A DNA stretch of 64,000 bases from an uncultured Tateyamaria sp. Its GTDB lineage: Bacteria; Pseudomonadota; Alphaproteobacteria; Rhodobacterales; Rhodobacteraceae. The stretch covers positions 124,001 through 188,000 of the forward strand of contig NZ_CANMEU010000005.1 of assembly GCF_947497045.1 (NCBI RefSeq). Reading direction: 5' to 3'. Position 1 is the stretch's first letter. Every line of letters begins with the position of its first letter. Below, one piece after another: positions 33,711 through 56,796 of this stretch. The notes under the pieces were generated by a model. That model was not told where the DNA came from, did not search any database, and saw only the letters and a program-made list of their open reading frames with translations. The position numbers and the translations under genes are program-made.

Positions 33711-34351
33711 TCAGTTTTATCCTCAAATGGGCAGAGATCGCGGATGATGCAGGTGGGGCACTGCGGCTTGCGCGCCTTGCAGTGATAGCGCCCGTGCAGG
33801 ATCATCCAGTGATGGGCGTGCAGCTGAAAATCAGCCGGAATGTGGTCTTCAATGGCGCGCTCGACCGCCTCGACGGTTTTGCCCGGTGCGATACCGGTGC
33901 GATTACCAAGCCGGAAGATATGGGTGTCCACGGCCTGCGCGGGGTACTGCCACCACATGTTCAGCACCACATTGGCCGTTTTCCGCCCCACACCGGGCAA
34001 TGATTGCAGGGCCGCGCGCGAGTTGGGAACGACGCCATCGAAATCATCGACGAGGATCTGCGACAGCTTGATCACGTTCTTGGCCTTTTGGCGGAACAGG
34101 CCGATGGTCTTGATATGCTCGGTCAGCCCGTCGATCCCGAGATCGAGCATTTTTTGCGGCGTGTCCGCAATCGCGAACAGCGCCCGCGTGGCCTTGTTCA
34201 CCCCTGCGTCAGTGGCTTGGGCCGACAGGGCGACCGCAACAACAAGGGTGTAGACATTCACATGCTCCAGCTCCCCTTTGGGTTCGGGGTCTGCGTCCTG
34301 AAAGCGGGTAAAGATCGCGCGGATCGTGTGATAGTCGAGTTGCCTGGCCAT
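33707..34351 (-). CDS. nth: Endonuclease III (DNA glycosylase/AP lyase)
   Basis: Nth removes oxidised pyrimidines in base-excision repair. It has the helix-hairpin-helix LPGVGRKTANVVL with the catalytic Lys, the catalytic Asp in AVDTHIFRLGNRTG, and the C-terminal 4Fe-4S cysteines in the pattern C-x6-C-x2-C-x5-C (CKARKPQC PTC IIRDLC). The ATG at 34351 (MARQLDYH) gives 214 residues, the usual size; the open frame extends upstream to 34438 but that part is not conserved-looking. The 5' ~200 bases and upstream DNA are repeated at 56532-56796. Confidence 0.95.
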   Translation of the reverse strand: MARQLDYHTIRAIFTRFQDADPEPKGELEHVNVYTLVVAVALSAQATDAGVNKATRALFAIADTPQKMLDLGIDGLTEHIKTIGLFRQKAKNVIKLSQILVDDFDGVVPNSRAALQSLPGVGRKTANVVLNMWWQYPAQAVDTHIFRLGNRTGIAPGKTVEAVERAIEDHIPADFQLHAHHWMILHGRYHCKARKPQCPTCIIRDLCPFEDKTE

Positions 34352-34424
34352 GGAAGGGAGGTATGGGGGAAGTTGATGTGGGGGGCAAGGTGTGGGGTGC
34401 CATGACGCGGAGGCGGCGAAGGGT
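34153..34424. repeat. Direct repeat copy A: nth 5' end plus upstream DNA
   Basis: This 272-base stretch contains the first ~66 codons of nth and ~73 bases beyond its start. It recurs in the same orientation at 56532-56796 with about 9 substitutions and one 7-base gap, so about 96% identity over the aligned part. The two copies flank about 22.1 kb. This copy belongs to the intact gene. Confidence 0.93.
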
Positions 34425-34541
34425 TGGGAATAGTCCAAGCTGCGTACTTGAATTTCCTGCTACATGTGCTCACAGCACGAAAACCAGCCTTTCGTGATAT
34501 CGCAGCGGGACTTTTTTGCCCGAATGCACCGGGGGGCGGGC

Positions 34542-35345
34542 CTAAGTGATGCGGGCAGAGTGCCAGACGTTTTTGATGTTCAGATAATTGTCGAGCCCCT
34601 CTGTCCCACCTTCACGACCGTAACCGCTGGATTCCACGCCTCCGAACGGGGTTTTGGGCATGGACGCCTCCAAGGTATTGATCGCCAGGTTCTCCACTTC
34701 AACTTCATCGACCATACGATCAATGCAATCTGCCCGATTGGTAAATGCGTAGCCAGCAGGGCCGTAAGGCACGGAATTGGCCTGTGAAATAGCGTGATCC
34801 AGGGAACTGACAGGAAAAAGGTTCTTCTTGCATGATCCGCGCGGTGTCCGGGACGCTCAATAGAACTGTTGGCTGGAAAAAGTACCCCTTGTCGCCATGG
34901 CCCGCCCCGCCCGTTACGACGGTGGCCCCTTTCGCGCGCGCATCTTCAACCAGTTCAGTTAAGATGGACACTCGCCGATCACTGGAGGTCGGGCCCATTT
35001 CCACGCCGTCGTCCATACCATTTCCAACCACGGTTGCTTTGGCATGTTCAATGAAGCCCGCAGCATAGTCGTCAAAATGCTCTCTTGCGCAAAGAACCGG
35101 GTGGGCGACATGCAGACCTGTCCGGCATTGCGCATTTTACGGACGGCACCGGAGATAGCGGCGGTTTGCACGCCCGCGTCCCATTCAAAGAATTCCGCAC
35201 CGCGAATGACTTCCAGCCGCGCCTGAGCAATGGGCTTGCCTTGTTCCAGCGTGATGGAGGTCGCGATTTCCTCCTGCCGGTTACGTATCAATCGGGCGGC
35301 ACGCAGGATTGTATCGGAACGCTCGCGTGGCGATGTCCTGCCCCT
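34542..35345 (-). pseudogene. Decayed aldehyde dehydrogenase (succinate-semialdehyde dehydrogenase type)
   Basis: Three minus-strand frames together spell parts of an aldehyde dehydrogenase. A fragment containing ILRAARLIRNRQEEIATSIT and EQGKPIAQARLEVIRGAEFF is followed directly by VRKMRNAGQVCMSPTRFF, with the middle NAD-binding part missing. A second frame gives DDGVEMGPTSSDRRV through YFFQPTVL. A third frame gives the C-terminus ASMPKTPFGGVESSGYGREG ending at a TAG. At least two frameshifts, an internal deletion and a lost N-terminus mean it cannot make an enzyme. The catalytic Cys (AGQVC) is preserved in the remnant. It lies at the left edge of the nth-flanked island. Confidence 0.85.
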
Positions 35346-35411
35346 AGATCACCCGCCACCGCATCGTGCTTCAAACGAATTGGATGAACATTGGCATCAG
35401 TTTGAGGAATA

Positions 35412-36362
35412 TCAGACGTGTCGGGTCTGCGCCGCGATGTGTAACGCGGCCTTAAACGCGCGCCCGGCAGGCGAAAGATCATCGTTGCCCCTTAGCGAGA
35501 CACCAATCGGGCCATGGCCAAACGGGACCTGCCAATCAAGCTGTGCCAGATGGCCGTTCTGAACGTCGTGTGACACCACCTCTGCCGGCATCAATCCAAT
35601 CAGATCGCGCGATTGCAACAGCGCGCGATTGCTGAGGTACGAGACGCTTTCGATGGACACCGCCGGCACGTATTGCTGCTGCGCCACAAAGAAGTGATCA
35701 ATCTGCCGCCTAAGGGTGGTTTCCAATGGGGGCAATATCCAACCGAACGGCTTGGCCTGAGGAAAGCTGATCCCGGTTTTCCCAGCCAGGGGATGGTCAG
35801 GCCCGACAACGGCGAGAATGTGATCCTCAAACAGTTTTTCCTGACGCAGCTTGTTGCGATGGCGATGTGAGGGAAGCCGCCCGACCACCATGTCGATCTC
35901 GCCCGATAGAAGGCCCGGCATCAGCACTTCATTGGTTCCTTCGCTGATCTTGATTGCGACGTTCGGGCGTTCCGCCAACACGAGCTCAATCGCCTTTGGC
36001 AACAGGCTCGTCGAGGCGGCCAGCAACGTGCCCACCACCACGCGACCTGCGTTACCTTCGCTCAGGTCATCGAGTTCCTGTGCGGCATTCGAAATTTGCG
36101 CGAATATCAATTTGCCATGCCGGATCAGCGTTTCCCCAAAGACCGTCGGCACGACGCCGCGGTTGGTCCGCTCAAACAGCTTCACCTCAAAATCCAGTTC
36201 GAGGTCCTGTATCATCTTGGTCGCCGCTGGTTGCGAGATGCCCAAAGACCGGGCCGCATTCTGTATGCTGCCATGGGCACCGACCGCGACCAGCAAACGC
36301 AACTGCCTCAGCTTTAGTCGGGTCAGAGCGCGGTCGACAATGCGGCTGTGACGATCGATCAT
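35412..36362 (-). CDS. LysR-family transcriptional regulator
   Basis: The 316-residue regulator has an N-terminal helix-turn-helix (LRQLRLLVAVGAHGSIQNAA; SQPAATKMIQDLE) and a LysR ligand-binding domain (VVVGTLLAASTSLLPKAI; ISEGTNEVLMPGLLSGEIDM). It overlaps the aspartate-dehydrogenase-like gene by 4 bases (ATGA), so they are one transcript. An inverted repeat in the divergent promoter (37152-37171) is a likely binding site, giving control of both arms. The effector is unknown but should be the compound handled by the dioxygenase-like/TRAP arm. Confidence 0.92.
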   Translation of the reverse strand: MIDRHSRIVDRALTRLKLRQLRLLVAVGAHGSIQNAARSLGISQPAATKMIQDLELDFEVKLFERTNRGVVPTVFGETLIRHGKLIFAQISNAAQELDDLSEGNAGRVVVGTLLAASTSLLPKAIELVLAERPNVAIKISEGTNEVLMPGLLSGEIDMVVGRLPSHRHRNKLRQEKLFEDHILAVVGPDHPLAGKTGISFPQAKPFGWILPPLETTLRRQIDHFFVAQQQYVPAVSIESVSYLSNRALLQSRDLIGLMPAEVVSHDVQNGHLAQLDWQVPFGHGPIGVSLRGNDDLSPAGRAFKAALHIAAQTRHV

Positions 36363-37135
36363 AGGACGATGCTTTGCTCAAGTTGGTTGACCTTGCTGAC
36401 CACGCTCATCGCGGCAAGCGCGGACGAGCGTGGGTTATCGGGAAGAGAATGGCCGCTGATCTGGAAGCTGAACTGGCCAAAGTCGCCTTGCGCCGTCACC
36501 TCGTGGATGTTTTGCCCAATGCTTGCATCTGCGATCAACCGAACTTGTGTGTCATCAAATCCAAGTCCCGCTAATGCAACAGCCGCCGCGACATTGGCAT
36601 TTTTAGGGTATTCCAGCGCAGCAGCCCGCGCGGATCCTTCAAAATGCACCGCTGCGCCCTCAATCATGCCGTCCAGATCCAGCTTTACCTCTGCGGGTGA
36701 TCCTTTCCATCCCCTGGGTGGCTTGCGGCCTGTATATGTCACCGAGGTCAGCTTTCCTGCGCGCGCGGCACTGAGACAATCCAATGCGCCGATGGCGCCA
36801 CTGGCCAAATGCAACTTTGACCCGCCATCCCTGGCTGCCTGTGCCAGAGCGGTTTCGATCTTTGTGTCAGCCAGTGCACCAAGCGATACGGTGATCAGGT
36901 TCAGGCCCCGCGCCAGGATCTGCGGGCCGTAGGTCGCCAGTGCCTCATGCCCGGCGCAATCAATCACTATGTCCAGATCCGTAGGAAGCGCCGAAACTGA
37001 CCCGACCTCCAAACTGGTGCCTGATGACACATGGTCAGGACGCAGCAACACCGCCCCTATTTCATGCCCGTGGGCCTTAAGGGCCGCCCAAGCATAGCGC
37101 GCGATGGCACCTTTTCCGATAAATCCAATTTTCAT
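36359..37135 (-). CDS. nadX: L-aspartate dehydrogenase-like protein
   Basis: The 258-residue protein starts with a Rossmann motif (MKIGFIGKGAIARYAWAAL) and has the DUF108/aspartate dehydrogenase catalytic segment SGAIGALDCLSAARAG, the strand YTGRKPPRGW and the conserved YPKNANVAAAVALAGLGFD. The family oxidises L-aspartate to iminoaspartate with NAD(P), either for NAD synthesis or amino acid breakdown. No nadA or nadC is near, so a catabolic role, perhaps on another amine, is more likely here. It diverges from the DapA-family gene, with 144 bases between them. Confidence 0.85.
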   Translation of the reverse strand: MKIGFIGKGAIARYAWAALKAHGHEIGAVLLRPDHVSSGTSLEVGSVSALPTDLDIVIDCAGHEALATYGPQILARGLNLITVSLGALADTKIETALAQAARDGGSKLHLASGAIGALDCLSAARAGKLTSVTYTGRKPPRGWKGSPAEVKLDLDGMIEGAAVHFEGSARAAALEYPKNANVAAAVALAGLGFDDTQVRLIADASIGQNIHEVTAQGDFGQFSFQISGHSLPDNPRSSALAAMSVVSKVNQLEQSIVL

Positions 37136-37151
37136 TCGGGAATTCTAGGTC

Positions 37152-37171
37152 ATTCCACCCATCTCTGGAAT
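37152..37171. promoter_or_regulatory. Candidate LysR operator in the divergent promoter
   Basis: ATTCCA (37152-37157) and TGGAAT (37166-37171) form a perfect inverted repeat with an 8-base spacer, containing a T-N11-A type LysR core. It lies 17-36 bases upstream of the aspartate-dehydrogenase-like gene and ~109 bases upstream of the DapA-family gene. The AT-rich run that follows (37190-37205) may be the promoter for the right arm. Confidence 0.45.
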
Positions 37172-37279
37172 TAGAAAGCTGTTGGTATTCATTTTTTATA
37201 TATCCACATGCCCGCTTCGCCTTGGACGATGCCGCTGTGATAAGGTCTTCTATGGTCGAAATCCAAAGGGGCCTGCCGC

Positions 37280-38233
37280 ATGCACTACACCAGACACGAA
37301 GCGAAAGACTATGCGCGTGAGAATATGCGTGGCATTTGGGCTGCTGCGCTGAACCCGTTCAACGATGACCTCACCTTGGACGAAGCGGGTCTGCGCGCCA
37401 ATATCCGCCATTGGATAGACGATCTGGGCATTCAGGGTCTGTTTGTTGCGGGTAAGCAAGGCGAATTCTGGGCGATGTCTCTGGAAGAACGCAAGCGCAA
37501 CATGGCCATTGCTGTTGACGAATGCGCAGGCAAGGCCGGGACAATCATGTCGATTTCGGATCAGAACCTGAACACGGCGCTCGAGCTTGGCCGCCATGCC
37601 CAAGCATGTGGTGCGGATTATGTCGTGGTGCATGCCCCGATGCTGAGCTTCTGTCAGGATCGCGGGGAGCTGCTGTATCAGTATTACAAGCGCTTTTGCG
37701 ATGAGCTGGATATTGGGATCGCGATGTGGAGCCACCCGGACGCCGGTTATCTGATGCAGCCCGAGGAATGCGCGCGGATTGCGGAACTGCCCAATATCGT
37801 GGCGATCAAATACTCGGTTCCGCGCGAAATGTATGTACGCCTATCCCATATGGTCGGTGACATGATCCACGTCTCGACCTCGGCCGAACATGAATGGCTC
37901 GACAATATTCTTGAACTGGACTGGAAGCTCTACCTCTGTTCATCGCCGCCTTACCAGTTGCAGACCAGAAACGACCAGCGGATGAACGAATACACCCGCC
38001 TCGCCTTTGAAGGCAAAGCGGATGAGGCGCGGCGTGTCTTTGACAGTCTCAACCCGGTGCGCGATGCAATGAAGCGCACAAAACCTGTTGGAAAGCCGAC
38101 GGCCTTTGGCAAATATTGGCAGGATCTGCTGGGTCAGTGTGGAGGCCGCGTGCGTGCGCCAATGCTGGAGCTGACCGAGGCTGAGAAAGAGATCATTCGC
38201 AAAGGGTTTGCAGAATGCGGGCTAAAGCTCTGA
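37280..38233 (+). CDS. DapA-family aldolase/hydratase of unknown substrate
   Basis: This is a 317-residue TIM-barrel protein of the dihydrodipicolinate synthase/N-acetylneuraminate lyase superfamily. It shows the N-terminal GIWAAALNPFNDDLTLDEAGL, the substrate loop GKQGEFWAMSLEERK (where DapA has GTTGE) and the Schiff-base Lys in NIVAIKYSVPREMY. The usual YNxP-type tyrosine segment reads MWSHPDAGYLM, so it is not true DapA. The loop GxxGEFxxxxxEE is closer to hydratase-aldolases acting on aromatic ring-cleavage products. It is first in an apparent operon with a dioxygenase-like cupin and a TRAP transporter. Confidence 0.8.
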   Translation: MHYTRHEAKDYARENMRGIWAAALNPFNDDLTLDEAGLRANIRHWIDDLGIQGLFVAGKQGEFWAMSLEERKRNMAIAVDECAGKAGTIMSISDQNLNTALELGRHAQACGADYVVVHAPMLSFCQDRGELLYQYYKRFCDELDIGIAMWSHPDAGYLMQPEECARIAELPNIVAIKYSVPREMYVRLSHMVGDMIHVSTSAEHEWLDNILELDWKLYLCSSPPYQLQTRNDQRMNEYTRLAFEGKADEARRVFDSLNPVRDAMKRTKPVGKPTAFGKYWQDLLGQCGGRVRAPMLELTEAEKEIIRKGFAECGLKL

Positions 38234-38238
38234 TATAA

Positions 38239-39865
<1,627 letters not shown>

Positions 39866-39886
39866 GGTAACCAAAGCATCAAGACG

Positions 39887-39912
39887 GGGCGCGGGCAGGC
39901 TCGCGCCCTTTT
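39887..39912 (+). terminator. Hairpin between the TRAP binding-protein and membrane genes
   Basis: GGGCGCG (39887-39893) and CGCGCCC (39902-39908) form a perfect 7-base stem with an 8-base loop, followed by TTTT. It sits 21 bases after the binding-protein stop and before the small membrane subunit. It probably stabilises the 3' end of the binding-protein mRNA or partly terminates transcription, giving more binding protein than membrane subunits. Confidence 0.7.
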
Positions 39913-39926
39913 GCTTGGAGATGAGC

Positions 39927-40460
39927 ATGTTATTCAAGGCATCCGCCTTTTGGGCGCGGATTGAAATGTTTGGGGCGGCAGCCTTTGCGGTTTGTGTGAC
40001 GTTGCTCATCCTGCTCAATGTTGTGACGCGGAATGTCGGACAGGCTCTCTTCTGGGTCGACGAACTGGCCATCTATGCCATGGTCTGGATGACCTTTCTG
40101 GGCGCATCTGCCGCCTTGCATCACCGCAGCTCGGTTTCGATTTCACTGATCTCGGACTCGGTTTCGCCTGCCCTGCGCCGGATGATCGGTAAATTCGTGG
40201 ATACGATCGTTTTTGCCTTTTCCGTGATGATGCTGTGGTTTTGCTGGCGCTGGTTTCTGCCGCTCGATCTGATCCGGTCCGGGTTTGATGTGATGGAATT
40301 TCAAGGCAGTACGTTCAATTTCATCTATGCGGAACCCACGCTGACCGTTGGGTTGCCAAAATACCTGTTCTGGCTTGTGATGTGGCTGTTCTCGCTTGGT
40401 GCGACGCTACACTCCGTCGCGCATCTGGTTTCAGGACCGAAACCGGAGGATGCCGCATGA
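39927..40460 (+). CDS. TRAP transporter small membrane subunit (DctQ family)
   Basis: The 177-residue protein has four membrane helices (for example AAAFAVCVTLLILLNVVTRN and KYLFWLVMWLFSLGATLHSV) and the family motif LFWVDELAIYAMVWMTFLGASAALH. DctQ joins the binding protein to the large subunit. I start at the ATG at 39927 because GGAG lies six bases before it; an ATG at 39921 and a TTG at 39915 are in frame. It overlaps the large subunit gene by 4 bases. Confidence 0.9.
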   Translation: MLFKASAFWARIEMFGAAAFAVCVTLLILLNVVTRNVGQALFWVDELAIYAMVWMTFLGASAALHHRSSVSISLISDSVSPALRRMIGKFVDTIVFAFSVMMLWFCWRWFLPLDLIRSGFDVMEFQGSTFNFIYAEPTLTVGLPKYLFWLVMWLFSLGATLHSVAHLVSGPKPEDAA

Positions 40461-41716
40461 GCCCCGTGGTCTTCCTTGTCACCCTGCTGTTGTCTGTTCC
40501 GATTGCCATTGTGCTTGGCGTCACGGCGATCTGGTACATCTGGGAAAGTGGCAACACCATTCTGTTCGACAGCTTTGCCCAAAAGATGTTCGCGGGTCTT
40601 GAGAATTACGGGCTGCTCGCCATTCCCCTCTTTATGCTGACTGGTGAGTTGATGAACGAGGGGGGCATGACCCGCCGTCTTGTCGCCTTGGCGCGGGTGT
40701 TTGTTGGCGGGTTCAGAGGTGGGTTGGCTTATATCAACCTGCTGGCGAACATGTTCATGGCCGCGATCATTGGTTCGGCCACCGCGCAGATTGCCGTCAT
40801 GTCGCGCGCCATGGTGCCTGCGATGAAAGACGAAGGCTATGACGAAGGATTCGCTGCGGCAACGACTGCGGCAGGAGGGTTACTTGCCCCTGTCATTCCA
40901 CCGTCGATGATGTTCGTGATTTTTGGCGTGCTGGCACAGGTCCCTATCGGCGAGATGTTCATCGCGGGGATTATTCCGGGCCTCCTTCTCGCTGTATCCT
41001 TTGCTTTGGTGATTACCCTCATTGGCTGGGTGCAGCAGTTTCCCAAAGGCGAATGGTTGTCGCGGAGAGAAGCGTTCAGCGCTCTGATCTCTGCACTGCC
41101 CGCCATGCTGGTGCCTGTCGCGATCATTGGGGGTATCCTGTTTGGTGTTGCAACGCCGACGGAATCCGCCGCCATCGCATCGCTCATTGCCTTTCTCGTG
41201 GGCTGGCTGATGTACCGTGACCTTGATCCGCGCAAACTGGGTGAGATGTTCTTTCGAACGGCGGCGAACGCCTCAATGATCCTGTTTATGATTGCAGCGG
41301 CCAGCGTCTTTGGCTGGGTCATCATCTATGAAGAATTGCCCCAAAGGCTTGCTGGTCTCATCACCGCAATCACCTCTGATCCGTTCATGTTCCTGCTGAT
41401 CGTGAATTTATCGCTTCTTCTCGTCGGTATGGTGATTGACGGGATCGCGGCCATTATCTTGATCACGCCGATCCTGCTGCCTATTGCGACCGGTTCATAC
41501 GATATCAGCCCCTATCAATTTGGTGTCGTTATCTGCCTGAACCTGGTTTTGGGTCTCCTGACACCACCTGTTGGCATTGGTCTTTATATCGCCTCATCGA
41601 TGAGTGGTGCCAAACCCGGCGCTATCCTGAAATCGCTCTGGCCGTTTTTGCTCGCAGTGGCCGCAGTATTGGGTTTGCTGAGCTATTTCCCGATACTATC
41701 GACGTTTCTGATCTGA
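40457..41716 (+). CDS. TRAP transporter large membrane subunit (DctM family)
   Basis: The 419-residue protein has about 12 membrane helices and the DctM motifs GLLAIPLFMLTGELMNEGGMTRRLV, GSATAQIAVMSRAMVPAMKDEGY and AATTAAGGLLAPVIPPSMMFVIFG, which build the sodium-driven transport path. It starts inside the DctQ stop codon (ATGA overlap). It is the last gene of the DapA-family/3-HAO/TRAP operon. The following ~175 bases to the SorC gene hold only a weak inverted repeat. Confidence 0.94.
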   Translation: MSPVVFLVTLLLSVPIAIVLGVTAIWYIWESGNTILFDSFAQKMFAGLENYGLLAIPLFMLTGELMNEGGMTRRLVALARVFVGGFRGGLAYINLLANMFMAAIIGSATAQIAVMSRAMVPAMKDEGYDEGFAAATTAAGGLLAPVIPPSMMFVIFGVLAQVPIGEMFIAGIIPGLLLAVSFALVITLIGWVQQFPKGEWLSRREAFSALISALPAMLVPVAIIGGILFGVATPTESAAIASLIAFLVGWLMYRDLDPRKLGEMFFRTAANASMILFMIAAASVFGWVIIYEELPQRLAGLITAITSDPFMFLLIVNLSLLLVGMVIDGIAAIILITPILLPIATGSYDISPYQFGVVICLNLVLGLLTPPVGIGLYIASSMSGAKPGAILKSLWPFLLAVAAVLGLLSYFPILSTFLI

Positions 41717-42872: not shown

Positions 42873-42875
42873 AGG

Positions 42876-47216: not shown

Positions 47217-47235
47217 TGATCTAAGGAACTGTTTC

Positions 47236-48759
47236 ATGGGGCAATCTGCATTCCGCCTGTCTGGTATCACCAAAGAATTTCCAGGGGTGCGGGCGCTGGA
47301 CGACGCATCACTTGAGGTGTTGGCCGGGGAGGTCCACGGGTTGGTTGGTGAAAACGGTGCCGGCAAGTCGACGGTGATCAAGGTTCTCGCGGGGGTCTAT
47401 CAGCCCGAGGCCGGCAAGGTCGAGGTAGACGGCCAGCTCTTGTCCCCCGCCACCCCCGCAAATGTTCATGCCGCCGGTGTCCGTTTCATTCATCAGGAAT
47501 TGCATCTGGTCCCGCATTTCACGGTGACCGAGTCTGTCTTTATGGGGCAGGAACGGCGCGGCCCATTCGGGTTGGCCAAGCGTGAGATGCGCAAAGCGGC
47601 AGAGACCTTTCTGCGTGATACCCTCGGCCTTGACGTTTCGGGCAACCGGCTCATCCGTGATCTTGGAACAGCCGAACGCAAATTGGTGCAAGTTGCGCGT
47701 GCGCTGATTGATGGGGACGCCAAAGTTGTGGTGTTTGATGAACCCACAGCGCCGCTTGCCTCCAACGAGGTTGATATTGTGATGGGTGCCATTGCCCGGC
47801 TCAAGGCACAGGGTATCGCGATCCTGTATGTCTCCCATTATCTGTCCGAGATCACCGACATCTGCGACCGCGTGACCGTGTTTCGGCAAGGTCAGACCGT
47901 GGGCGTCTTTGACAACATCACCGCCGACAGCGCGGGCGATCTGGTGTTTGCCATGGTGGGGCGCAACATCACCGATATGTTCCCGCCCAAGGGTGACCGC
48001 GTCGTCAGCGACGGACTGCAGATCACCGATTTCACAGATGGGCAAAAGTTTGCACCCCTGACCATGTCGGTCGGCAAGGGAGAGATTGTTGGCATTGCTG
48101 GCCTGATCGGGTCCGGTCGCGAGGAATTTGTCGACACGCTGTATGGGTTGCGCCGCCGCAAGATGGGTGCCGTATCATTCGAGGGCGCGGATTTGACCAT
48201 AACCACCGCCGCGCAGGCCGTTCGATCGGGGCTTGTGCTTGTCCCGCGCGACCGGCGCCATGACGGCTTGGTCCTGTCGATGAGCGTGGCTGAAAATGTC
48301 ACGCTGGCCACCTTGGAAGATAATGCCGTGATGGGGCTGGAAAACCGCAACGCGGCGCGTAAGGCCACGCTAGCGCAGGTGCAATCGCTTGATATCCGCC
48401 CCCCCAACCCGGATGCTATCACCCGCCTGCTGAGCGGTGGAAATCAGCAAAAGGTCGTCCTGGCCCGATGGTTGTCTACATCGGCACGCATTTTCATTTT
48501 CGATGAACCGACCGTGGGCGTCGATGTGGGGGCCAAGGCGGAGATCTATCAACTGATCGAAGAACTTGCCGGAGAGGGGGCCTGTGTGATCGTGTCCTCC
48601 TCGGACCCAGTCGAATTGCAGGGTGTCTGTGACCGCATCGTCGTAATGACCCGTGGTGCATTGGTGGGTGAAATGCAGGCGGATGCGATCAGCGTGGATG
48701 ATCTTGTTGCGGCCACCACAGGGGCCAGTTCGGTTGAGGAGATCCGCAATGCAAGCTGA
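47236..48759 (+). CDS. Sugar ABC transporter ATP-binding protein (double ATPase, ribose type)
   Basis: This is a 507-residue protein with two fused ABC domains. The first has Walker A GLVGENGAGKSTVIK and Walker B AKVVVFDEPTAPL; its signature is degenerate (LGTAERKLVQVARAL), as usual for this family. The second has LSGGNQQKVVLARWLS and IFIFDEPTVGVDVGAK. It energises the two permeases encoded next. It overlaps the first permease gene by 11 bases. Confidence 0.94.
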   Translation: MGQSAFRLSGITKEFPGVRALDDASLEVLAGEVHGLVGENGAGKSTVIKVLAGVYQPEAGKVEVDGQLLSPATPANVHAAGVRFIHQELHLVPHFTVTESVFMGQERRGPFGLAKREMRKAAETFLRDTLGLDVSGNRLIRDLGTAERKLVQVARALIDGDAKVVVFDEPTAPLASNEVDIVMGAIARLKAQGIAILYVSHYLSEITDICDRVTVFRQGQTVGVFDNITADSAGDLVFAMVGRNITDMFPPKGDRVVSDGLQITDFTDGQKFAPLTMSVGKGEIVGIAGLIGSGREEFVDTLYGLRRRKMGAVSFEGADLTITTAAQAVRSGLVLVPRDRRHDGLVLSMSVAENVTLATLEDNAVMGLENRNAARKATLAQVQSLDIRPPNPDAITRLLSGGNQQKVVLARWLSTSARIFIFDEPTVGVDVGAKAEIYQLIEELAGEGACVIVSSSDPVELQGVCDRIVVMTRGALVGEMQADAISVDDLVAATTGASSVEEIRNAS

Positions 48760-49723
48760 GGCCCAAGGTCGGCGTATTGTCCTCGAGATTTTCGGCTTCT
48801 TGCCTGTGATCATCTTTGTGGCTGTTCTGATTTATATCAGCTTCAACGCGCCGAATTTCCTGACACTGCGCAACCTCGAACTTGTCCTGATGCAAAGCCT
48901 GCCTGTCGTGCTGGTCTGCGCTGGTCTGGCCGCGGTGGTGATGGCGGGTGGGGACGACGTTGTCTCGGGGGGGATTGATCTGTCGATCCCGGCGACGGCT
49001 GTACTGGCTGCGGGGATTACAGCGCAAATGCTGAGCCTTGGCTATCCCCTGGCTCTATGTGCGGCGGTGGCATTCGCGGCGTCGATGATTGTCGGGGGGC
49101 TCAATGCTGTTCTGGTGACACGTATCCAGATGACACCGCTTTTGACCACGCTTGCCATGTTCGTTGCGGTTGTTGGCGTCAATAATGTCGTTACAGCCAG
49201 CCGCAGGATCAACGTGGACCATCCGTGGATCACCGTTTTGCGTGCCCAGGAGGTCGGCGGCGTGCCGCTTGGCATTCTAGTTGTTGCATTGCTTGTGGCC
49301 GTGATCTTTTTCGCGCTGCACCAGACCCGGTGGGGGCTGAACCTTCAGGCGGTGGGCGGCAGTCGGGACGCCGCGGAAATTTCCGGCCTCAACGTGAACA
49401 GGTTTATCGCCCAAAGCTTTATCCTTGCGGCCTTCAGCGGCTTTGTCTGCGGGTTCTTCATTCTCGCGCGCGGCTCCGGCAGTTCGCCCGGGGTCGAAGA
49501 CAACCTGATGCTGGAGATGGTGCTGGCGACATTCCTGGGGGCTGCGTTCTCGCCTCGACGGGTTGTGACCATGTGGGGGGCGATATTGGGCGCGATTCTG
49601 GTTGCCGCCATTTCGATCGGCTTCAAGTCCATGGGTGTCAATGTGTTCTGGACTGGTCTGATCAAGGGATCGCTGATCGTTCTTGTCGTCGCATTTTCCG
49701 CCATTTCGCAAAGGGTTCGCTAA
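48749..49723 (+). CDS. Sugar ABC transporter permease (ribose type, first)
   Basis: This is a 324-residue BPD_transp_2 permease with about 8-10 membrane helices. Motifs are GGIDLSIPATAVLAAGITA, the EAA-like loop GGSRDAAEISGLNVNRF and LARGSGSSPGVEDNLMLEMV. The ATG at 48749 lies inside the end of the ATPase gene and has GAGGAGA upstream. It pairs with the next permease to form a heterodimeric channel. Confidence 0.92.
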   Translation: MQAEAQGRRIVLEIFGFLPVIIFVAVLIYISFNAPNFLTLRNLELVLMQSLPVVLVCAGLAAVVMAGGDDVVSGGIDLSIPATAVLAAGITAQMLSLGYPLALCAAVAFAASMIVGGLNAVLVTRIQMTPLLTTLAMFVAVVGVNNVVTASRRINVDHPWITVLRAQEVGGVPLGILVVALLVAVIFFALHQTRWGLNLQAVGGSRDAAEISGLNVNRFIAQSFILAAFSGFVCGFFILARGSGSSPGVEDNLMLEMVLATFLGAAFSPRRVVTMWGAILGAILVAAISIGFKSMGVNVFWTGLIKGSLIVLVVAFSAISQRVR

Positions 49724-49726
49724 GCC

Positions 49727-50701
49727 ATGTCCGACGCGTCTGCCCCGACAAATCTGCTTATCAATATCATCCTGCGTTTCGGCTTTCTGATCGTCTTTGC
49801 GGCGTTCTTTGCGCTCTTTGCATTTTGGAACCCTGTTTTTGTGCAGGGCGGGAACCTGATGAATATCGTCGAAGGTTCGGCGGTATTGATGATCCTGGCC
49901 CTGGGAATGACATTGATCGTGGCGACCGGCGGCATTGATCTGAGCATCGGGATCGCGCTTGATTTCGGAGCAGCTTTTGCCGTTGTCGCGATGAAGTCCT
50001 ACGGCCTTGACTGGTTCGGTGCGGCCTGCGCGGGGGTTATCGGTGGCTCGATTGTGGGGCTGTTTAATGCGTTGCTGGTCGTTGGGCTGAAGATCAGCCC
50101 GTTTCTGGCGACGCTGAGCACGTTTTTCATCGGCTCCTCGGTGCAGCGGATCTTTACCAACGGAGGCGGCCCGATCTCGCACCGCCGCATGCCCGAAGAA
50201 TTTCGCAACCTCGCACTTGGCGATGTATTCGGGGTCCCGACCGAGGCCGTGATCGCCTTTGTGCTGGTGGTCATCTACTTTATCGTGCTTGAGCGGTCGA
50301 TCTGGGGGCGGCGCATCCATGCGATGGGGATGCAGCGATCGGCTGCCGTGGTCGCAGGCATCCGTGTGAACCGCATCCTGATCCTGTGCTTTGTCGCAGC
50401 CGCGGCCACCTGCGCGATTGCGGGTCTGATCGCCGCAGCCAACATTCGGATGTTCACGCCGCTGTCCGGGTTTTCCTATCTGCTGGACGCCATCGCGGCC
50501 GTGTTTATCGGTGCGGCACTGCATTCACGCGGGCGTCCCAATATTCCGGGGACGGTGATGGGGGTACTGTTTCTTGGGATGGTGGCCAACGGGCTGAACC
50601 TGATGGGATTGAACTTCAACACCAAGGATGCGTTGCAGGGGATTATCCTTGTTTCGGCACTCGCGCTGGCGGTGGCCCAACGCAAGGCGCGCAACGGTTA
50701 G
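49727..50701 (+). CDS. Sugar ABC transporter permease (ribose type, second)
   Basis: This is a second 324-residue permease with the same fold. Motifs are LGMTLIVATGGIDLSIGIALDF and the loop MQRSAAVVAGIRVNRI. It starts 3 bases after the first permease. It is the last gene of the SBP-ATPase-permease-permease operon, and its stop overlaps the stop of the convergent molybdoenzyme gene by 4 bases. Confidence 0.92.
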   Translation: MSDASAPTNLLINIILRFGFLIVFAAFFALFAFWNPVFVQGGNLMNIVEGSAVLMILALGMTLIVATGGIDLSIGIALDFGAAFAVVAMKSYGLDWFGAACAGVIGGSIVGLFNALLVVGLKISPFLATLSTFFIGSSVQRIFTNGGGPISHRRMPEEFRNLALGDVFGVPTEAVIAFVLVVIYFIVLERSIWGRRIHAMGMQRSAAVVAGIRVNRILILCFVAAAATCAIAGLIAAANIRMFTPLSGFSYLLDAIAAVFIGAALHSRGRPNIPGTVMGVLFLGMVANGLNLMGLNFNTKDALQGIILVSALALAVAQRKARNG

Positions 50702-52959
50702 GTTTCTATCGTTGGGGGCCGCGTGACCCGCATGGCGGGGACCGGGCCATCCCATTTTTCGGCCCTTACAACACAGGTATGTGCGATATTCCCCTGGCTT
50801 AAGGATGAACATCCCTGATCAATCGTCAGCACGTTCGGATTGCCATGTACATCGATTGTCTCACCGTTGATGGTCTGGGGGTCAAACCACGCGCCGGTCG
50901 GCAGGGAAAGGCAATCCGCACGAAGATCATCGCGAAGTTCAGCCGCGCATAGGCACGCACCGCGCGGGCTGGTCAGTTTTATCAGATCGCCGTCCCGTAC
51001 CCCCAACGTCGCCGCGGCCTCGGGATGCAGCGCGCACACCTCGCGCCCCTGTCTCTTGGCGGCCTGCGCCTCGCGTCCCATATCGTTTTGTGAGTGCAGA
51101 CGCGTCGCGGGTTGGCCAGAAATCAGATGGAATTCACCCGGTTTCAGGTGCGCGCCTTCAACGGGGGCCAACCACGCCGGATGGCCGGGGCAGTCAGGCA
51201 GACCCATGGCTGCGATCGTTTCGTTGAACAGGGTGATCTTGCCACTTTCGGTGGCCAGTTTATGAGCGTCAGGGGCCCCCACGAAACGCTTGAACGCGAT
51301 CCGTTCTTCGACCGCATCGGGCAAATCAAACCGACCCGTATTCCGGAAGGTTTCAAAATCGGGCAAGGCAAAGCCGTGCGCCTGTGCCACCTCTTGGGAT
51401 TGCGCCCAAATGTGGCGCAGCCAACCATCGGTGTCGCGTCCTTCGGTGAAGGCTTCTTGCAGGCCCAGCCGTTCTGCCACGCCGACGAAAATCGTATGAT
51501 CATCGCGGGCCTTGCCCAAGGGTTCGAACATTGCGCTCATATACAGCAGCGTTGGATCGCGGCGGTTCATCATAATGTCGTCGCGTTCCAGAGGTGTCGT
51601 GGCTGGCAGTACAAGATCGGCCCGGCGCGCCGTAGCCGTCCAGCTGTGCTCGTTTACGATCACCGTTTCAGGCCGGCACCATGCCCGTTCAAGCCGAAAC
51701 AGATCCTGATGGTGATGAAACGGATTGCCACCTGTCCACCAGACCAGACGCAGGTCAGGGTAGTGGCGGGTTTCGCCGTTGTAGACATATGGCGCGCCCG
51801 GGTTCAGCAATGCGTCCGCGATCCGCGCCACCGGGATGAAATCCGGGACGGCGTTTTGTACCCCGGGCAGCGATGGCCAGGGGATCAGCTTTGCTGCGCG
51901 ACCCACGGGCGTGGTCGACCCATAGCCAAACGCATACCCCGTGCCGGGCTGACCGATCTGGCCCAATACACAGGCCAGCGCGAGCCCGGCCCAGATCGGT
52001 TGCTCTCCGTGATCAGCGCGCTGCATGCCCCAGGCCATTGAAACCATGACGTTTTTACGTGCCAGCTCTGCGGCCAATGTGGTAATGATAGTCGCATCCA
52101 GATCACAAATCGCCGCCGCCCATTCTGGCGTCTTGGGCGTGCCATCCGATTGCCCGCGCACATAGCGTTCCAATTCCGCCCAACCGCTCGTGTATGTTTC
52201 CAGGAACTTGCGGTCCTCACGTCCCAAGCGCAAGATTTCGTGAATGAGGGCGAGGATCAGCGCGCTGTCTGTTCCGGGTCTGATCGCCATCCAGTCATCG
52301 CGCGCTTCACCCCGTTCGGGCGCAATAGTCACCACCCGCACGCCGCTGTCCTTGAGTGCGTCAATCCATGGTCCGACCTCGTGGGTGGACGTGCCAGCCG
52401 CAGTGATCTGCGCTGTGCGCGCGGAAATACCGCCAAATGCGAGTACGATGTCACAGTGTTGGGTGACCAGTGGCATTGCCGTCATCTGATCCTGAAAGGC
52501 GCGGTTCGAAAGGCCGATGATATGGGGGAACAACACTTCGGCGGTGGCGTGGGAATAGGTTTCGCGGGACGATGTGAAGCCACCCGCAAGTGCCAGAAGC
52601 CGCCTCATCTGGCTTTGGGCGTGATGGAAACGCCCGGCGCTTGACCAGCCGTAGGACCCGCCGAAAATTGCCGCATTGCCATAGGTTTGCCGAACACGGT
52701 CCAATTCTGATGCGGCCAGATCAAGCGCATGATCCCAGCCAATTTCAACAAAGCTATCGTCGCAACGCCCCGCACCTTTGTCCCCGTTCAGCCAGCCCTT
52801 GCGGGCGACCGGGGACATGACACGTGCATTGCTGTTGCGTGCCGCACTGACCCAGCCCCGCCCAATCCGTGATGGTGCAGGATCACCCGACAGCGGGGTC
52901 AGTTCCGTATCACCGACTTCAAACTGGTAGCTGCCCCAGTGGGCTGCGGTATACTTCAT
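50698..52959 (-). CDS. Molybdopterin oxidoreductase of the biotin/DMSO sulfoxide reductase type (BisC-like)
   Basis: The 753-residue protein belongs to the DMSO reductase family without an N-terminal 4Fe-4S motif. It begins YTAAHWGSYQFEV, has the molybdenum-ligand segment GGSYGWSSAGRFHHAQSQMR (Ser ligand) and the cofactor-binding LVWWTGGNPFHHHQDL and HSWTATARRADLVLPATTPLERDD. Length and motifs match BisC/TorZ-type sulfoxide or N-oxide reductases. There is no Tat signal, so it should be cytoplasmic like BisC. The ATG at 52959 has GAGAG upstream; a GTG at 52971 would overlap the upstream dehydrogenase gene in a GTGA. Confidence 0.9.
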   Translation of the reverse strand: MKYTAAHWGSYQFEVGDTELTPLSGDPAPSRIGRGWVSAARNSNARVMSPVARKGWLNGDKGAGRCDDSFVEIGWDHALDLAASELDRVRQTYGNAAIFGGSYGWSSAGRFHHAQSQMRRLLALAGGFTSSRETYSHATAEVLFPHIIGLSNRAFQDQMTAMPLVTQHCDIVLAFGGISARTAQITAAGTSTHEVGPWIDALKDSGVRVVTIAPERGEARDDWMAIRPGTDSALILALIHEILRLGREDRKFLETYTSGWAELERYVRGQSDGTPKTPEWAAAICDLDATIITTLAAELARKNVMVSMAWGMQRADHGEQPIWAGLALACVLGQIGQPGTGYAFGYGSTTPVGRAAKLIPWPSLPGVQNAVPDFIPVARIADALLNPGAPYVYNGETRHYPDLRLVWWTGGNPFHHHQDLFRLERAWCRPETVIVNEHSWTATARRADLVLPATTPLERDDIMMNRRDPTLLYMSAMFEPLGKARDDHTIFVGVAERLGLQEAFTEGRDTDGWLRHIWAQSQEVAQAHGFALPDFETFRNTGRFDLPDAVEERIAFKRFVGAPDAHKLATESGKITLFNETIAAMGLPDCPGHPAWLAPVEGAHLKPGEFHLISGQPATRLHSQNDMGREAQAAKRQGREVCALHPEAAATLGVRDGDLIKLTSPRGACLCAAELRDDLRADCLSLPTGAWFDPQTINGETIDVHGNPNVLTIDQGCSSLSQGNIAHTCVVRAEKWDGPVPAMRVTRPPTIET

Positions 52960-52967
52960 CGAAACTC

Positions 52968-54026
52968 TCACAAAGTTGGGTCGAGCATCACTTTGATCTG
53001 AAGCTCGCCTGGTTCCGGTTTGTGCGTCAAGGCGGCCTCGAAATCCTCCAAAGGATATACATGCGTCACGCTGGCGTCGCCATCAATCTTGCCCCGCGCC
53101 ATCAAATCCAGCGCTGTTTCATAGGTGAATGGCGCAAGATGCCCGCCGCGAATGTCCAGTTCCTTGAATTCACCAAAGATGTTCAGATCAATGCTGGCGG
53201 GGGATTTGTAAACGCCGAAAACCACCAGCCGCGCGCCTTTGCGCACAATCTGCAAACCCTGTTCGAAGGCCGATGTCTGGCCCGACGCCTCAAGGAAAAC
53301 ATCCGCCCCGCGCCCCTGCGTCAGGTCACCAAGGGCTTCGGCCAATTGCGGATCGTCGGGTGCAAAGGCCAGATCGGCACCAAGGGTCAAAGCCGCGGCG
53401 CGTTTGGCTGCACCGGGGTTGATCAGGATCACCTTGCGCGGGGTTTTCAGGGCGGCGGCCTGCACCATACCCATCCCGATGGGGCCGGCACCTGAGATCA
53501 CGACCACATCATCAAACTGAATATCAGCCCGCTGCACCCCGTGGATCGCATTGGCCAAAGGTTCGGTGTAACAAGCCGCCTTGTTGCTCAGCCCATCGGG
53601 CACCTTATGGATCACAGCACCTGCGGGATAAATCATGTATTCCGCCCATCCGCCGTCCAGCGTGGCCCCCAGAACCTGCATATGATCGGTAAGATGATAC
53701 GCCCCACGCTGGCGATAGAAATCGTCGCCCGTGGTGACGTTCAGTTCCGCAATGGCGCGGTCACCGGGTTTTAATCCAGTGGCCTGCGCCGCTTGTGCAT
53801 CAAGCTCAACGACGGTGCCTGTAAATTCATGGCCGGGCGTGAAGGGAAAGTTCAGCGCCCAAGGCCCTGTTGCATCCCACATGGCGCGATCGGCGGCGCA
53901 TATCCCGGAGGCGTCCACGCGCACAAGAACCTCGCCGGGACCCGGCTGAGGAAAGGGTTGGTCGGACACCAACCGATGCCGTCCACCAAAGCCCTCACAT
54001 CGCACGGCTTTCATGGTGCCTTTCAT
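52968..54026 (-). CDS. Zinc-type alcohol dehydrogenase without structural zinc cysteines
   Basis: This is a 352-residue medium-chain dehydrogenase. It begins MKGTMKAVRCEGFGGRH, has the catalytic Cys in DASGICAADRAMW, GHEFTGTVVELD and the NAD motif ISGAGPIGMGMVQAAAL. The region that normally holds four structural-zinc cysteines reads LNVTTGDDFYRQRGAYHL. The ATG at 54026 has GGAGGA eight bases upstream; an open frame extends far upstream but overlaps the divergent transketolase promoter. It precedes the BisC-like gene (their ends nearly overlap), so the two are co-transcribed. Substrate is probably a polyol or sugar derivative. Confidence 0.88.
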   Translation of the reverse strand: MKGTMKAVRCEGFGGRHRLVSDQPFPQPGPGEVLVRVDASGICAADRAMWDATGPWALNFPFTPGHEFTGTVVELDAQAAQATGLKPGDRAIAELNVTTGDDFYRQRGAYHLTDHMQVLGATLDGGWAEYMIYPAGAVIHKVPDGLSNKAACYTEPLANAIHGVQRADIQFDDVVVISGAGPIGMGMVQAAALKTPRKVILINPGAAKRAAALTLGADLAFAPDDPQLAEALGDLTQGRGADVFLEASGQTSAFEQGLQIVRKGARLVVFGVYKSPASIDLNIFGEFKELDIRGGHLAPFTYETALDLMARGKIDGDASVTHVYPLEDFEAALTHKPEPGELQIKVMLDPTL

Positions 54027-54083
54027 GGTCACAGTCCTCCACAGCATAAATTCCGGCCTGTCGGCCCAATGGTCTTGCTCTAT

Positions 54084-54110
54084 ACATTTGATCAGTATAT
54101 TGACTAATGT
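54084..54110. promoter_or_regulatory. Imperfect palindrome in the divergent ADH/transketolase promoter
   Basis: A 27-base AT-rich element runs from ACATTTGATC (54084) to TGACTAATGT (54110). Its ends ACATT and AATGT form an inverted repeat about an AT-rich centre. The transketolase start (AAAAAGGAGACGAGCG before the ATG at 54131) and the alcohol dehydrogenase start at 54026 flank it. It is a plausible operator; it shares ACATTTG with the kinase/ABC promoter at 46126. Confidence 0.35.
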
Positions 54111-54130
54111 AAAGAAAAAGGAGACGAGCG

Positions 54131-55057
54131 ATGCGCAATGAACGACAGACGGACAAGGTCGCCCTGGGCATTCGACGCCGCGTCTTCGAACATGCCATTC
54201 GCAACAATGGCGGCTACCTGAGCCAAGCCTGTTCGGCTGCCGAACAGCTTGCATGGCTTTACAACGAAGAGCTGAACCTTGGTGCGCCAACGCTGCCCTT
54301 GATCCCCAAACCCTTCGAAGGCGTGCCGTCCCCAGGCAACCCGGATTACCATACCGGTGCCGGATACAATGGCCCCTCGACGCCTGAGTTTGACCGTTTA
54401 TTCATCGCGCCCGCACATTACGCTCTGGTCGCATATGCAACGTTGATCGAGGTGGGCCGCATGGCACCTGAAGGGCTTGAGATGTTCAATCAGGACGGCT
54501 CTTCGGTTGAGATGATCGGCGCGGAACACAGCCCCGGTATGGAGGTGCACAACGGCACGCTTGGCATTGGTTTGTCGACCGCCTCTGGCCTTGCCTACGG
54601 GCGGCGGCTGCGCGGAGACACCGGACGGACATGGGTGTTCATGTCCGATGGCGAGGTCCAGGAGGGCCAGACATGGGAAGCCGTGCAGGCCTGTGCGCAT
54701 CACGGCATCGACAATGTGCTGGCAATGATGGATGTGAACGACCAGCAATGTGATGGCGCGATGTCATCAGTGATGGAAGTGGGCGACATCCGCACGAAAT
54801 TCCTGAATTTTGGCGCGGCCTGTGTCGAAATCGATGGCCATGACCTGAACGCGATGCGCGACGCGGTGCACGAGCCCCACGATGGCAAGCCGCTGATCAT
54901 TCTGGCGCGGACCAACCCGTTCCACACCATGTCCATTCTTGAAGAACGCTTTCCACGGCTGCATTACGTGCGCTTCAAGTCCGAGGTTGAGCGCGCACGC
55001 TTCAACACATCCATTGCGGCCGACCTTGGCGTCGATCCCGTTGACTACACCCATTAA
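54131..55057 (+). CDS. Transketolase, N-terminal (thiamine diphosphate) subunit
   Basis: This 308-residue protein is the N-terminal half of a split transketolase. It has RNNGGYLSQACSAAEQLAW and, further on, the thiamine-diphosphate motif SDGEVQEGQTWEAVQACAHHGIDNVLAMMDVNDQQ (GDGE-x-NN-type). The HSPGMEVHNGTLGIGLSTASGLAYG segment matches substrate-binding His and Gly residues. It has AAGGAGA upstream of the ATG. The C-terminal half is encoded 13 bases downstream. Split transketolases of this kind often sit in specialised sugar catabolic clusters. Confidence 0.93.
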   Translation: MRNERQTDKVALGIRRRVFEHAIRNNGGYLSQACSAAEQLAWLYNEELNLGAPTLPLIPKPFEGVPSPGNPDYHTGAGYNGPSTPEFDRLFIAPAHYALVAYATLIEVGRMAPEGLEMFNQDGSSVEMIGAEHSPGMEVHNGTLGIGLSTASGLAYGRRLRGDTGRTWVFMSDGEVQEGQTWEAVQACAHHGIDNVLAMMDVNDQQCDGAMSSVMEVGDIRTKFLNFGAACVEIDGHDLNAMRDAVHEPHDGKPLIILARTNPFHTMSILEERFPRLHYVRFKSEVERARFNTSIAADLGVDPVDYTH

Positions 55058-55070
55058 GGAGGCCCGAGAC

Positions 55071-56075
55071 ATGGTAGAAATGGTAAACCGCCCCTACGCA
55101 TCGGCCTTTGAAAGTTTTGCTGCGGGTAACCCGGATATTTTATGCCTCAGCGCGGATCTGACATCGTCGTGTGAGATTGACGGGTTTCGCGACAGACATC
55201 CCCATCAGTTTCTGTCTCTTGGCATGGCCGAGCAAAATATGATGAGCTTCGCCGGTGGTCTTGGCCTTGCCGGGTTTCGCCCTTTCATTCACACCTTTGG
55301 CGTCTTTATGTATCGCCGTCCCTATGACCAATTGATGGCTTCCATCGCATATCCTCGGCGTAAGGTGCGTATGATGGGCTTTCTGCCGGGTGTCACCACA
55401 CCGGGCGGCATGACGCACCAGTCCATTGAGGACATCTCGGTCATGCGATCGATCCCCAATATGACCATTCTTGAGACTGGCGACGCCACGGAAGTTGAAA
55501 GCATCTGCGAGGCGGCCGACAGCATCGATGGCCCCGTGTGGTGCCGCGTCTTGCGCGGATCGGTGCCCCGCCTGTTTCACACGCCGATCAAAGTGGGTGA
55601 GATGAGGGAGTTGTCGTCAGGGGATGATATCCTTGTGGTGACATCCGGTATCTGCACCGAGGAAGCCATGCGCGCCTGCGCCGCTTTTGCGAATGCGGGG
55701 CTATCGATCCGTCACCTGCACCTGCACACCATCAAGCCGTTCAATACCGAAGCGCTGCTGGATCAGATCGGCAGCGTCAAGCATGGGGTTGTGACGCTGG
55801 AAAATCACGTGACAGAAGGTGGGATCGGCTCGCTTGTAGCGGAAACCATGGCCGATGCGGGCGTGGGTAAGAAACTGGTGAGGCTGGGACTGCAAGATAC
55901 CTATGCACACGGTGGATCGCGCCCATACCTGATGCGCTATTATGGTCTGGACGCCCTTGCGTTGGTCAAGGGTATCGAAGGGTTGATGGGACAGGAATTC
56001 GGTATCACGGAAGACGATCTTGCGACCGCGCGTGTCGATGATGTGCACTCATTGGTCAAGGCGGAGGCGCTGTGA
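55071..56075 (+). CDS. Transketolase, C-terminal subunit
   Basis: This is a 334-residue protein of the pyrimidine-binding/C-terminal transketolase domains. It contains LSADLTSSCEIDGFRDRHPHQF, the catalytic Glu region FLSLGMAEQNMMSFAGGLGLAG, and the C-terminal VTLENHVTEGGIGSLVAE. AAGGAGG before the ATG gives a strong start. It pairs with the N-terminal subunit and so should form the active heteromeric enzyme moving a two-carbon unit between sugar phosphates. It is the last intact gene of the island. Confidence 0.93.
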   Translation: MVEMVNRPYASAFESFAAGNPDILCLSADLTSSCEIDGFRDRHPHQFLSLGMAEQNMMSFAGGLGLAGFRPFIHTFGVFMYRRPYDQLMASIAYPRRKVRMMGFLPGVTTPGGMTHQSIEDISVMRSIPNMTILETGDATEVESICEAADSIDGPVWCRVLRGSVPRLFHTPIKVGEMRELSSGDDILVVTSGICTEEAMRACAAFANAGLSIRHLHLHTIKPFNTEALLDQIGSVKHGVVTLENHVTEGGIGSLVAETMADAGVGKKLVRLGLQDTYAHGGSRPYLMRYYGLDALALVKGIEGLMGQEFGITEDDLATARVDDVHSLVKAEAL

Positions 56076-56531
56076 CGGAACCGCAAACTGCAAAAGGGTC
56101 ATAGAACCCGGATGCCGACCCAAAACCGCTCCAGAGTGACGAGGTCTGCGTCTGGTCTGCCAATGTGGGTTAATGCGAACCTACCTTGATGAAGCTCCGT
56201 TGATTTCGGCCGTTCTGCGTTCATCACCGCCCCCGAGTCAAGCGGTGAAGATGTCTGATCTAGTGTGATTGGTGACGCGTACTGGGCGCGGTGAAGCGAT
56301 AAGGGCGTCTTCGTTCCGATGCCGGTGAAATCGGTGGCGGTTCACGGTGAGGAGAAGACGGTGATGACCCTCCCCCGGTGGTCCCTCACGAAGTGGTGCT
56401 GGAACCCAACGGATCTGAAAGCCTATCGTAGGGGCATCCACTGAACCCCTTTGTTACTGTGGGTTCTGCGCATCCATCGCTGGCGCTGGCTTTTGATCTC
56501 TGATCCGGCAACCGAACGCATCATCATTGCG
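56076..56531. other. 456-base gene-free stretch at the right side of the island
   Basis: No credible coding region, RNA or intact insertion sequence was found here. Short frames exist on both strands, but none resembles a known protein. It lies between the transketolase C-subunit gene and the truncated copy of nth, so it may hold remnants of a mobile element or of genes lost at the junction. I could not identify any terminal inverted repeat. Confidence 0.5.
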
Positions 56532-56730
56532 TTTGCGGCGTGTCCGCAATCGCGAACAGCGCCCGCGTGGCCTTGTTCACCCCTGCATCAGTGGCTTGGG
56601 CCGACAGGGCGACCGCAACAACGAGAGTATAGACATTCACATGCTACAGCTCCCCTTTGGGTTCGGGGTCTGCGGCCTGAAAGCGGGTAAAGATCGCGCG
56701 GATCGTGTGATAGTCGAGTTGCCTGGCCAT
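56532..56730 (-). pseudogene. Truncated nth 5' remnant
   Basis: This matches codons 1 to ~66 of nth on the same strand (start codon equivalent at 56730-56728). It lacks the rest of the gene and has an in-frame TAG at 56644-56646, where the intact gene has a Glu codon. It is therefore a nonfunctional partial copy. It is part of the direct repeat that brackets the island. Confidence 0.92.
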
Positions 56731-56796
56731 GGATGGAAGGTAGGGGGGAAGTTGATGTGGGGGGCAAGGTGTGGTGGCGCGGAGGCGGCGAAGGGT
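56532..56796. repeat. Direct repeat copy B: nth 5' end plus upstream DNA
   Basis: This 265-base segment matches 34153-34424 in the same orientation with ~9 substitutions and a 7-base deletion (near 56775). It includes the broken nth start and ~66 bases upstream of it. Homology ends at the sequence GCGGCGAAGGGT in both copies. Confidence 0.93.

Follow-up and report, generated by a model that had tools for sequence, protein, structure and literature searches.

A repeated nth 5' end as a recombination scar within the nth-ada insertion hotspot of an uncultured Tateyamaria

The repeated 5' end of nth

In the 64-kb window analysed here (the whole stretch of 64,000 nucleotides from an uncultured Tateyamaria sp.), the 5' end of nth, the gene for endonuclease III, is present twice, and the two copies are separated by some 22 kb of catabolic genes. 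A preliminary description of the locus regarded the intervening DNA as an accessory island bounded by the two copies, and the question that the locus raises is how a fragment of a core repair gene came to lie on the far side of such a cargo.

The intact gene (33710-34351, minus strand, with its 5' end at the right) encodes the Pfam domains HhH-GPD, HHH and EndIII_4Fe-2S, and its product displays 97% protein identity to that of G017, the nearest relative and the reference used for the nth region. Codons 1 to ~66 of that gene, together with ~73 bp of upstream DNA, form the left copy of the repeat (34153-34424, minus strand), and the right copy (56532-56796, minus strand) consists of a truncated nth 5' end that contains a stop codon and is again accompanied by upstream DNA. 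Alignment of the two confirmed that they are repeated in the same orientation at about 96% identity, as had been proposed: 255 of 265 aligned bases are identical, in addition to a 7-base gap (E = 2e-116), with an overall identity of 96.2%, an ungapped core of 243 nt at 96%, and 193 of 199 bases identical within the coding part. No other direct repeat with a length of 60 bases or above was reported in the window. The earlier description of the left gene as intact and of the right one as truncated was likewise upheld, in that the right copy carries a change of E29 to a stop (codon 29), as well as a D19A substitution, and departs from the nth frame after ~66 codons.

A search for the nth 5' end across 290 genomes of the family produced matches in 275, only the present genome being matched twice (the remaining 15 gave no match), and a second copy was absent from 19 of 19 genus-mate genomes (labelled up to G019, with one genome per species). 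Relatives that share both copies, which the preliminary description had named as evidence against an insertion, are therefore absent among the other genomes of both sets. The nth 5' end was also considered as a recurrent integrase target, and that candidate was rejected because no second copy exists elsewhere in the same family search, with its 15 unmatched genomes.

The nth-ada interval as an insertion hotspot

To its left, nth is adjoined by a pfkB-family kinase gene (32721-33710, minus strand; Pfam PF00294), a conserved neighbour that occupies the same position in 5 of 5 family genomes examined from other genera. To the right, the conserved frame is formed by a gene for an ada-type regulator/methyltransferase (57674-58522, plus strand), which was identified by Pfam and NCBIfam assignments and by its position in relatives, where ada adjoins nth across the nth 5' side and the two genes are divergent. 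In a survey of 40 genomes from other genera, which were drawn from the best-scoring rows of the family nth search and are therefore biased towards near relatives, ada was found in 39, of which 37 carry it and nth on one contig; the spacing (for which nth start positions are accurate to a few bases) was below 300 bp in 24 of the 37 linked genomes, 0.7-2.1 kb in 12, and 17 kb in one. A second sample from other genera of the family contained a tight nth-ada pair in 4 of 5 genomes, the fifth displaying no ada within the 1.5 kb examined.

Within the genus, nth and ada share a contig in 17 of the 19 genus-mates (they are on different contigs in G002 and G011), and the distance between them ranges from 265 bp in G019, through 0.9-3.9 kb in 13 genomes, 9.4 kb in G014 and 26.8 kb in G018, to 1.15 Mb in G010. 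The intervening genes also vary by lineage: a phytochrome-type kinase is found in G017, a glycosyltransferase in G014, and in G018 a tricarboxylate-type transporter accompanied by genes for aconitase and dehydrogenases, among others; small frames that were judged by eye to be alike are shared by G001, G003, G005 and G008, and others by G004 and G012. Because the core neighbours remain the same and both spacing and contents (the latter inspected in part of the genus-mates) vary, the genus has an insertion hotspot between nth and ada. Its empty state, as represented by G019 and by the 24 linked genomes from other genera with spacings below 300 bp, consists of nth next to ada; the empty site that had been predicted earlier, in which nth would be joined to the hexapeptide gene described below, was seen in no genome.

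In the present genome, the island extends from approximately 34425 to 57605 (23 kb), and the right nth copy is located within that variable interval. Beyond the copy is a gene encoding a hexapeptide (left-handed beta-helix) protein (56879-57550, plus strand; Pfam Hexapep), for which no close relative was detected in the other 294 of 295 family genomes sampled (E 1e-25) or in the 19 genus-mates, which contain only partial matches at 33-38%, none of them at nth. The nearest relatives found, at 53-54%, are those of Phenylobacterium, Caulobacteraceae, Hyphomonadaceae and another alphaproteobacterial MAG. Judged by that distribution, the hexapeptide gene is itself accessory cargo of the hotspot, and the island reaches beyond the right nth copy. 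The distance from the right copy (hereafter the stub) to ada is 0.94 kb, similar to that observed in small alleles of the hotspot (0.90 kb in G016 and G013).

Cargo between the two copies

The 22 kb between the nth copies is made up of two modules, which genus-mates carry separately. Module 1 (34546-41716) comprises a decayed aldehyde dehydrogenase gene (34546-35336, with an internal loss of ~440 bp relative to G009 and G016), a LysR regulator, an aspartate dehydrogenase, a DHDPS-like lyase, a 3-hydroxyanthranilate dioxygenase and a DctPQM TRAP transporter; the dioxygenase and the aspartate dehydrogenase passed NCBIfam cut-offs, and the family names suggest a putative pathway of the 3-hydroxyanthranilate type, or a related one, with uptake through the TRAP transporter. 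Module 2 (41892-56075) harbors genes for a SorC-type regulator, a class II aldolase, two zinc dehydrogenases, an FGGY kinase, a sugar ABC transporter, a BisC/TorA-like molybdoenzyme and a split transketolase, and by the same kind of assignment may specify a sugar or polyol pathway in which the split transketolase is included. These family searches bore out the gene content first described for the region (a decayed dehydrogenase, regulators, transporters and catabolic enzymes).

Scoring of up to 15 candidates per genus-mate genome located Module 1 as collinear blocks in G009, G016 and G006, in each case away from nth, and located Module 2 as a single 14-kb collinear match in G002 (42171-56071) and as partial copies in two blocks in G007. 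A counter-check, in which every candidate was scored for one protein per module, returned the Module 1 lyase at 75-86% in G016, G009 and G006 only (the next best match being at 33%) and the C part of the Module 2 transketolase in G002 and G007 only, and identified no genus-mate (n = 19) with both modules. The modules were seen next to nth in no genus-mate in which the nth neighbour is visible (the contig of G002 breaks off at nth). The region that had been described as a 22-kb accessory island is thus accessory in its content, and was not seen at nth in these genus-mates, but consists of two modules rather than a single unit. Plasmids carry parts of both: of 169 records matching Module 1, two (from Ruegeria) cover at least 80% of its length, those of Tritonibacter mobilis cover 76-80% and those of Phaeobacter about half, and parts of Module 2 are found on plasmids of Marinovum and Paracoccus.

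A Pfam-type family scan of the 22 kb identified no integrase, replication or mobility family among its main reading frames, which fill positions 34546-56075 almost wholly, the small frames being covered in part. An examination of composition, as recommended in the preliminary description, gave GC values (55.9% for Module 1, 59.0% for Module 2 and 50.9% for the hexapeptide gene region) that are below those of the local flanks (61.4% on the left, 60.8% on the right), but that carry no foreign signal: relative to 80 windows (400 kb) of the same genome, 5-kb island windows displayed z-scores of -1.3 to +0.4 for GC and of at most +0.4 for tetranucleotide usage. Composition was therefore rejected as a marker of foreign origin, since the island windows do not stand out from the genome at large.

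Edges and age of the repeat

Directly to the left of the right nth copy are the remnants of two transposase genes. The first, of the IS4/5 family (DUF4096; 56197-56369, plus strand), has undergone an internal deletion and was recognized by two collinear matches (56197-56290 and 56282-56369) to sites in G003, G005 and G009, where the frames of G003 and G009 are assigned to Pfam DUF4096. The second (56464-56539, minus strand) is a probable IS110-family transposase gene remnant, which matches a G008 frame with Transposase_20 at 72% over a short stretch of 76 nt (genome-wide E of 1.1e-5), and which runs into the stub. The joint between stub and IS110-like remnant is abrupt, with 2 bases shared exactly (6 of 8 when mismatches are included), and a joint without extended homology is thereby present. 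The earlier statement that neither an integrase nor an IS lies near the edges was accurate for integrases, no such family having been found in the scanned frames, but overlooked the two remnants that adjoin the right copy. Both match within transposase genes and not at IS ends; no remnant was detected at the left edge, so that they occupy one side only; no further copy of either was found by DNA in the genome itself; and matching IS copies on both sides, as in a composite transposon, are lacking. At the left edge, homology between the two nth copies stops at 34424, and that between the left copy and G017 at 34428, which indicates that the copies part where the cargo begins. A search for the origin of the left joint (34425-34545) returned only matches with E values of 0.003 and 0.07.

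The two copies are equally distant from G017 (86.2% identity for the left and 86.0% for the right), and the 96.2% identity between them, as compared with those values of ~86%, indicates that their fork is not recent, yet postdates by far the separation from G017. When polarised by G017 alone, the 10 substitutions that separate the copies are divided into 4 derived in the left, 5 derived in the right and 1 that is unclear. The 3 coding changes derived in the left copy are all at silent third positions, and those derived in the right copy include the stop and D19A, the base of the latter being found also in G014 and G009. Identity to G017 is 87-88% to the left of nth and 83.9% to the right of ada, a contrast that says little, given that the drop on the right flank is also found in G014 and G006. 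Mapping of a crossover by identity to G017 was also tried, and showed no step on the left flank.

Origin of the repeat

The nth repeat points to recombination at nth. The account that we favor, and that we judge about equally apt to prove right or wrong, starts from two hotspot alleles, ~4% diverged, that would have been stacked head to tail by an event combining homologous recombination at one end with an illegitimate joint at the other. One allele would have consisted of nth followed by Module 1, Module 2 and the transposase remnants, and the other of nth, the hexapeptide gene and ada. DNA from a close relative (~96% identical) would have paired by homology on the pfkB-nth side (or, mirror-wise, on the ada side), and its opposite end would have been joined illegitimately, at the transposase remnant and at approximately codon 66 of nth; the outcome would be one nth that is whole, another reduced to a 5' stub, and both cargoes between nth and ada, with the stub decaying afterwards. 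The observed structure shows the repeat, its truncation against the remnant, the separate occurrence of the modules, the hotspot and the accessory nature of the hexapeptide gene; the route, the vector and the choice of resident allele are inferred.

Several observations argue for such stacking: the hotspot itself, its lineage-specific cargo, a distance from stub to ada that resembles that of a small allele, the abrupt joint at the stub, the end of the left-copy homologies at the start of the cargo, the equal distance of both copies to G017, and the division of derived changes between the two. Against it, two alleles that had long been functional would be expected to have left derived silent changes in the right copy, and 0-1 such changes are found there versus 3-4 in the left, although these numbers are tiny. 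Neither unstacked allele was found in any genome examined (one genome per species). Further points against are the brevity of the match behind the IS110 assignment and the lack of a crossover step in identity to G017 on the left flank. Recombination of this kind is reported to be very rare during conjugation in E. coli, where circularised DNA may instead undergo a single crossover (PMC3240628).

An event of the latter type, reported there in E. coli, corresponds to the Campbell-type integration that the preliminary description had suggested, in which a circle bearing an nth 5' fragment in addition to both modules and the transposase remnants would have undergone one crossover with the chromosomal nth gene. 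The same final structure would result, with a directly repeated homologous segment flanking the insert, and both modules are found, at least in part, on the plasmids named above. However, such a circle would already have had to acquire nth and upstream DNA that ends at the usual cargo joint, and the route is longer than one with homology on a single side; a plasmid bearing an nth fragment of this kind was not found among the best 15 of 19 PLSDB matches (67-87% query coverage, records of at least 0.85 Mb); and the main frames of the 22 kb are devoid of replication, mobility and integrase families, although such genes may have been lost. Recombination at nth is thus retained from that suggestion, and a circle as its vehicle is conceivable but unlikely.

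Somewhat less probable again is a scenario in which the nth 5' end was first duplicated in place, the modules then entering between the copies, with decay. The equal divergence of the copies from G017 agrees with that sequence of events, the changes derived in the right copy resemble neutral decay and those in the left the silent changes expected of a gene still at work, and the fact that the right copy has so few derived silent changes leans mildly towards duplication; it nevertheless requires a duplication plus later insertions between the copies, and no second nth 5' end was found in other genomes, whether among those matched in the family or among the genus-mates.

Site-specific elements of a comparable kind, such as SXT in prfC and e14 in icd, can leave one end of a gene duplicated, with the functional copy bearing silent changes. 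An element that targeted nth, supplied a new 5' end and displaced the old one might have left the present repeat in that way, but is very improbable, in view of the lack of an integrase family in frames that fill the two modules almost wholly and of a further nth 5' copy in any other genome that was searched. An IS-mediated insertion or an assembly artefact is scarcely credible, even with transposase remnants adjoining the stub, since those remnants match within transposase genes, have no detected counterpart at the left edge and no further DNA copy in the genome, and since the 4% divergence and the 7-base gap speak against an assembly duplication.

If the stacking of hotspot alleles is extended to the genus, the nth-ada gap may be envisioned as a gene-gain ratchet, in which a conserved divergent promoter region and core neighbours that serve as a homology anchor would allow one-sided recombination between unlike alleles to stack cargo, so that intervals would grow stepwise without an integrase and would sometimes retain an nth stub as a datable scar. 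The interval sizes cited for that proposal (0.3, 0.9-3.9, 9, 23 and 27 kb) are those found in the genus, and we regard it as tentative and on balance doubtful.

Comparison with known systems

The nth repeat is a real, well preserved recombination scar in a genuine hotspot, and the mechanism proposed for it is known in kind. The nth-ada frame is not named in the literature searched on hotspots and islands, which is no proof that it is unreported, and nothing on point was found there on nth or on a roseobacter island of similar kind. The significance of the locus is threefold: (i) the stub provides a concrete, polarised fossil of how genomic islands that lack an integrase can form; (ii) the core-gene frame formed by nth and ada is named as a site of concentrated gene exchange in one genus; and (iii) if unstacked alleles exist in sister strains, the one-sided recombination model for hotspots is directly testable in nature.

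Homology-facilitated illegitimate recombination is known from competent bacteria and from conjugation in E. coli (PMC3240628), and the same process has been proposed for the T6SS effector-immunity arrays of Vibrio cholerae, where leftovers of displaced alleles remain (PMC5361080). It resembles the event proposed here in combining one homologous side with one non-homologous joint, and in adding DNA that lacks homology in the recipient (PMC3240628, PMC5361080); the nth-ada case differs in being reconstructed from a decayed natural locus, at which the homologous side is unprovable. The hotspots between core genes of the E. coli chromosome similarly display a conserved core frame and lineage-specific cargo (PMC2617782). 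The V. cholerae arrays, built by stepwise displacement, offer a parallel in layout, with a new module situated beside a conserved anchor and the leftover of a displaced allele downstream (PMC5361080); at nth-ada, by contrast, what is left over is a defunct fragment of a core repair gene, and the genes carried are catabolic.

Arrangement of the nth-ada frame and its flanks

In the genus-mate G010, the core genes nth and ada are separated by 1.15 Mb, and the nth-ada frame itself is therefore disrupted by rearrangement in that genome. The corresponding interval in G198, a genome from another genus, spans 17 kb (C9:326061-343207). To the left of nth, window positions 23926-28408 match positions 16101-19748 of L033, a locus in the genus-mate G006, where that counterpart is inverted and is located to the right of ada rather than to the left of nth, as it is in the window. 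Approximately 0.9 kb of the left flank (24170-25052) is unmatched in a further genus-mate, G017, which is otherwise collinear.

Copies and decay of cargo genes

Within Module 1, the cargo segment that adjoins nth, the gene for aldehyde dehydrogenase occupies window positions 34546-35336 and is missing an internal portion of approximately 440 bp relative to the genus-mates G016 and G009; a related stretch is also present in its own genome (G000:C4:270809-271434). Module 2, which harbors the split transketolase, is represented in the genus-mate G007 by two partial copies (L151 and L152), one residing on a 1.68-Mb contig and the other on a 33-kb contig, the latter displaying one stop within the transketolase frame.
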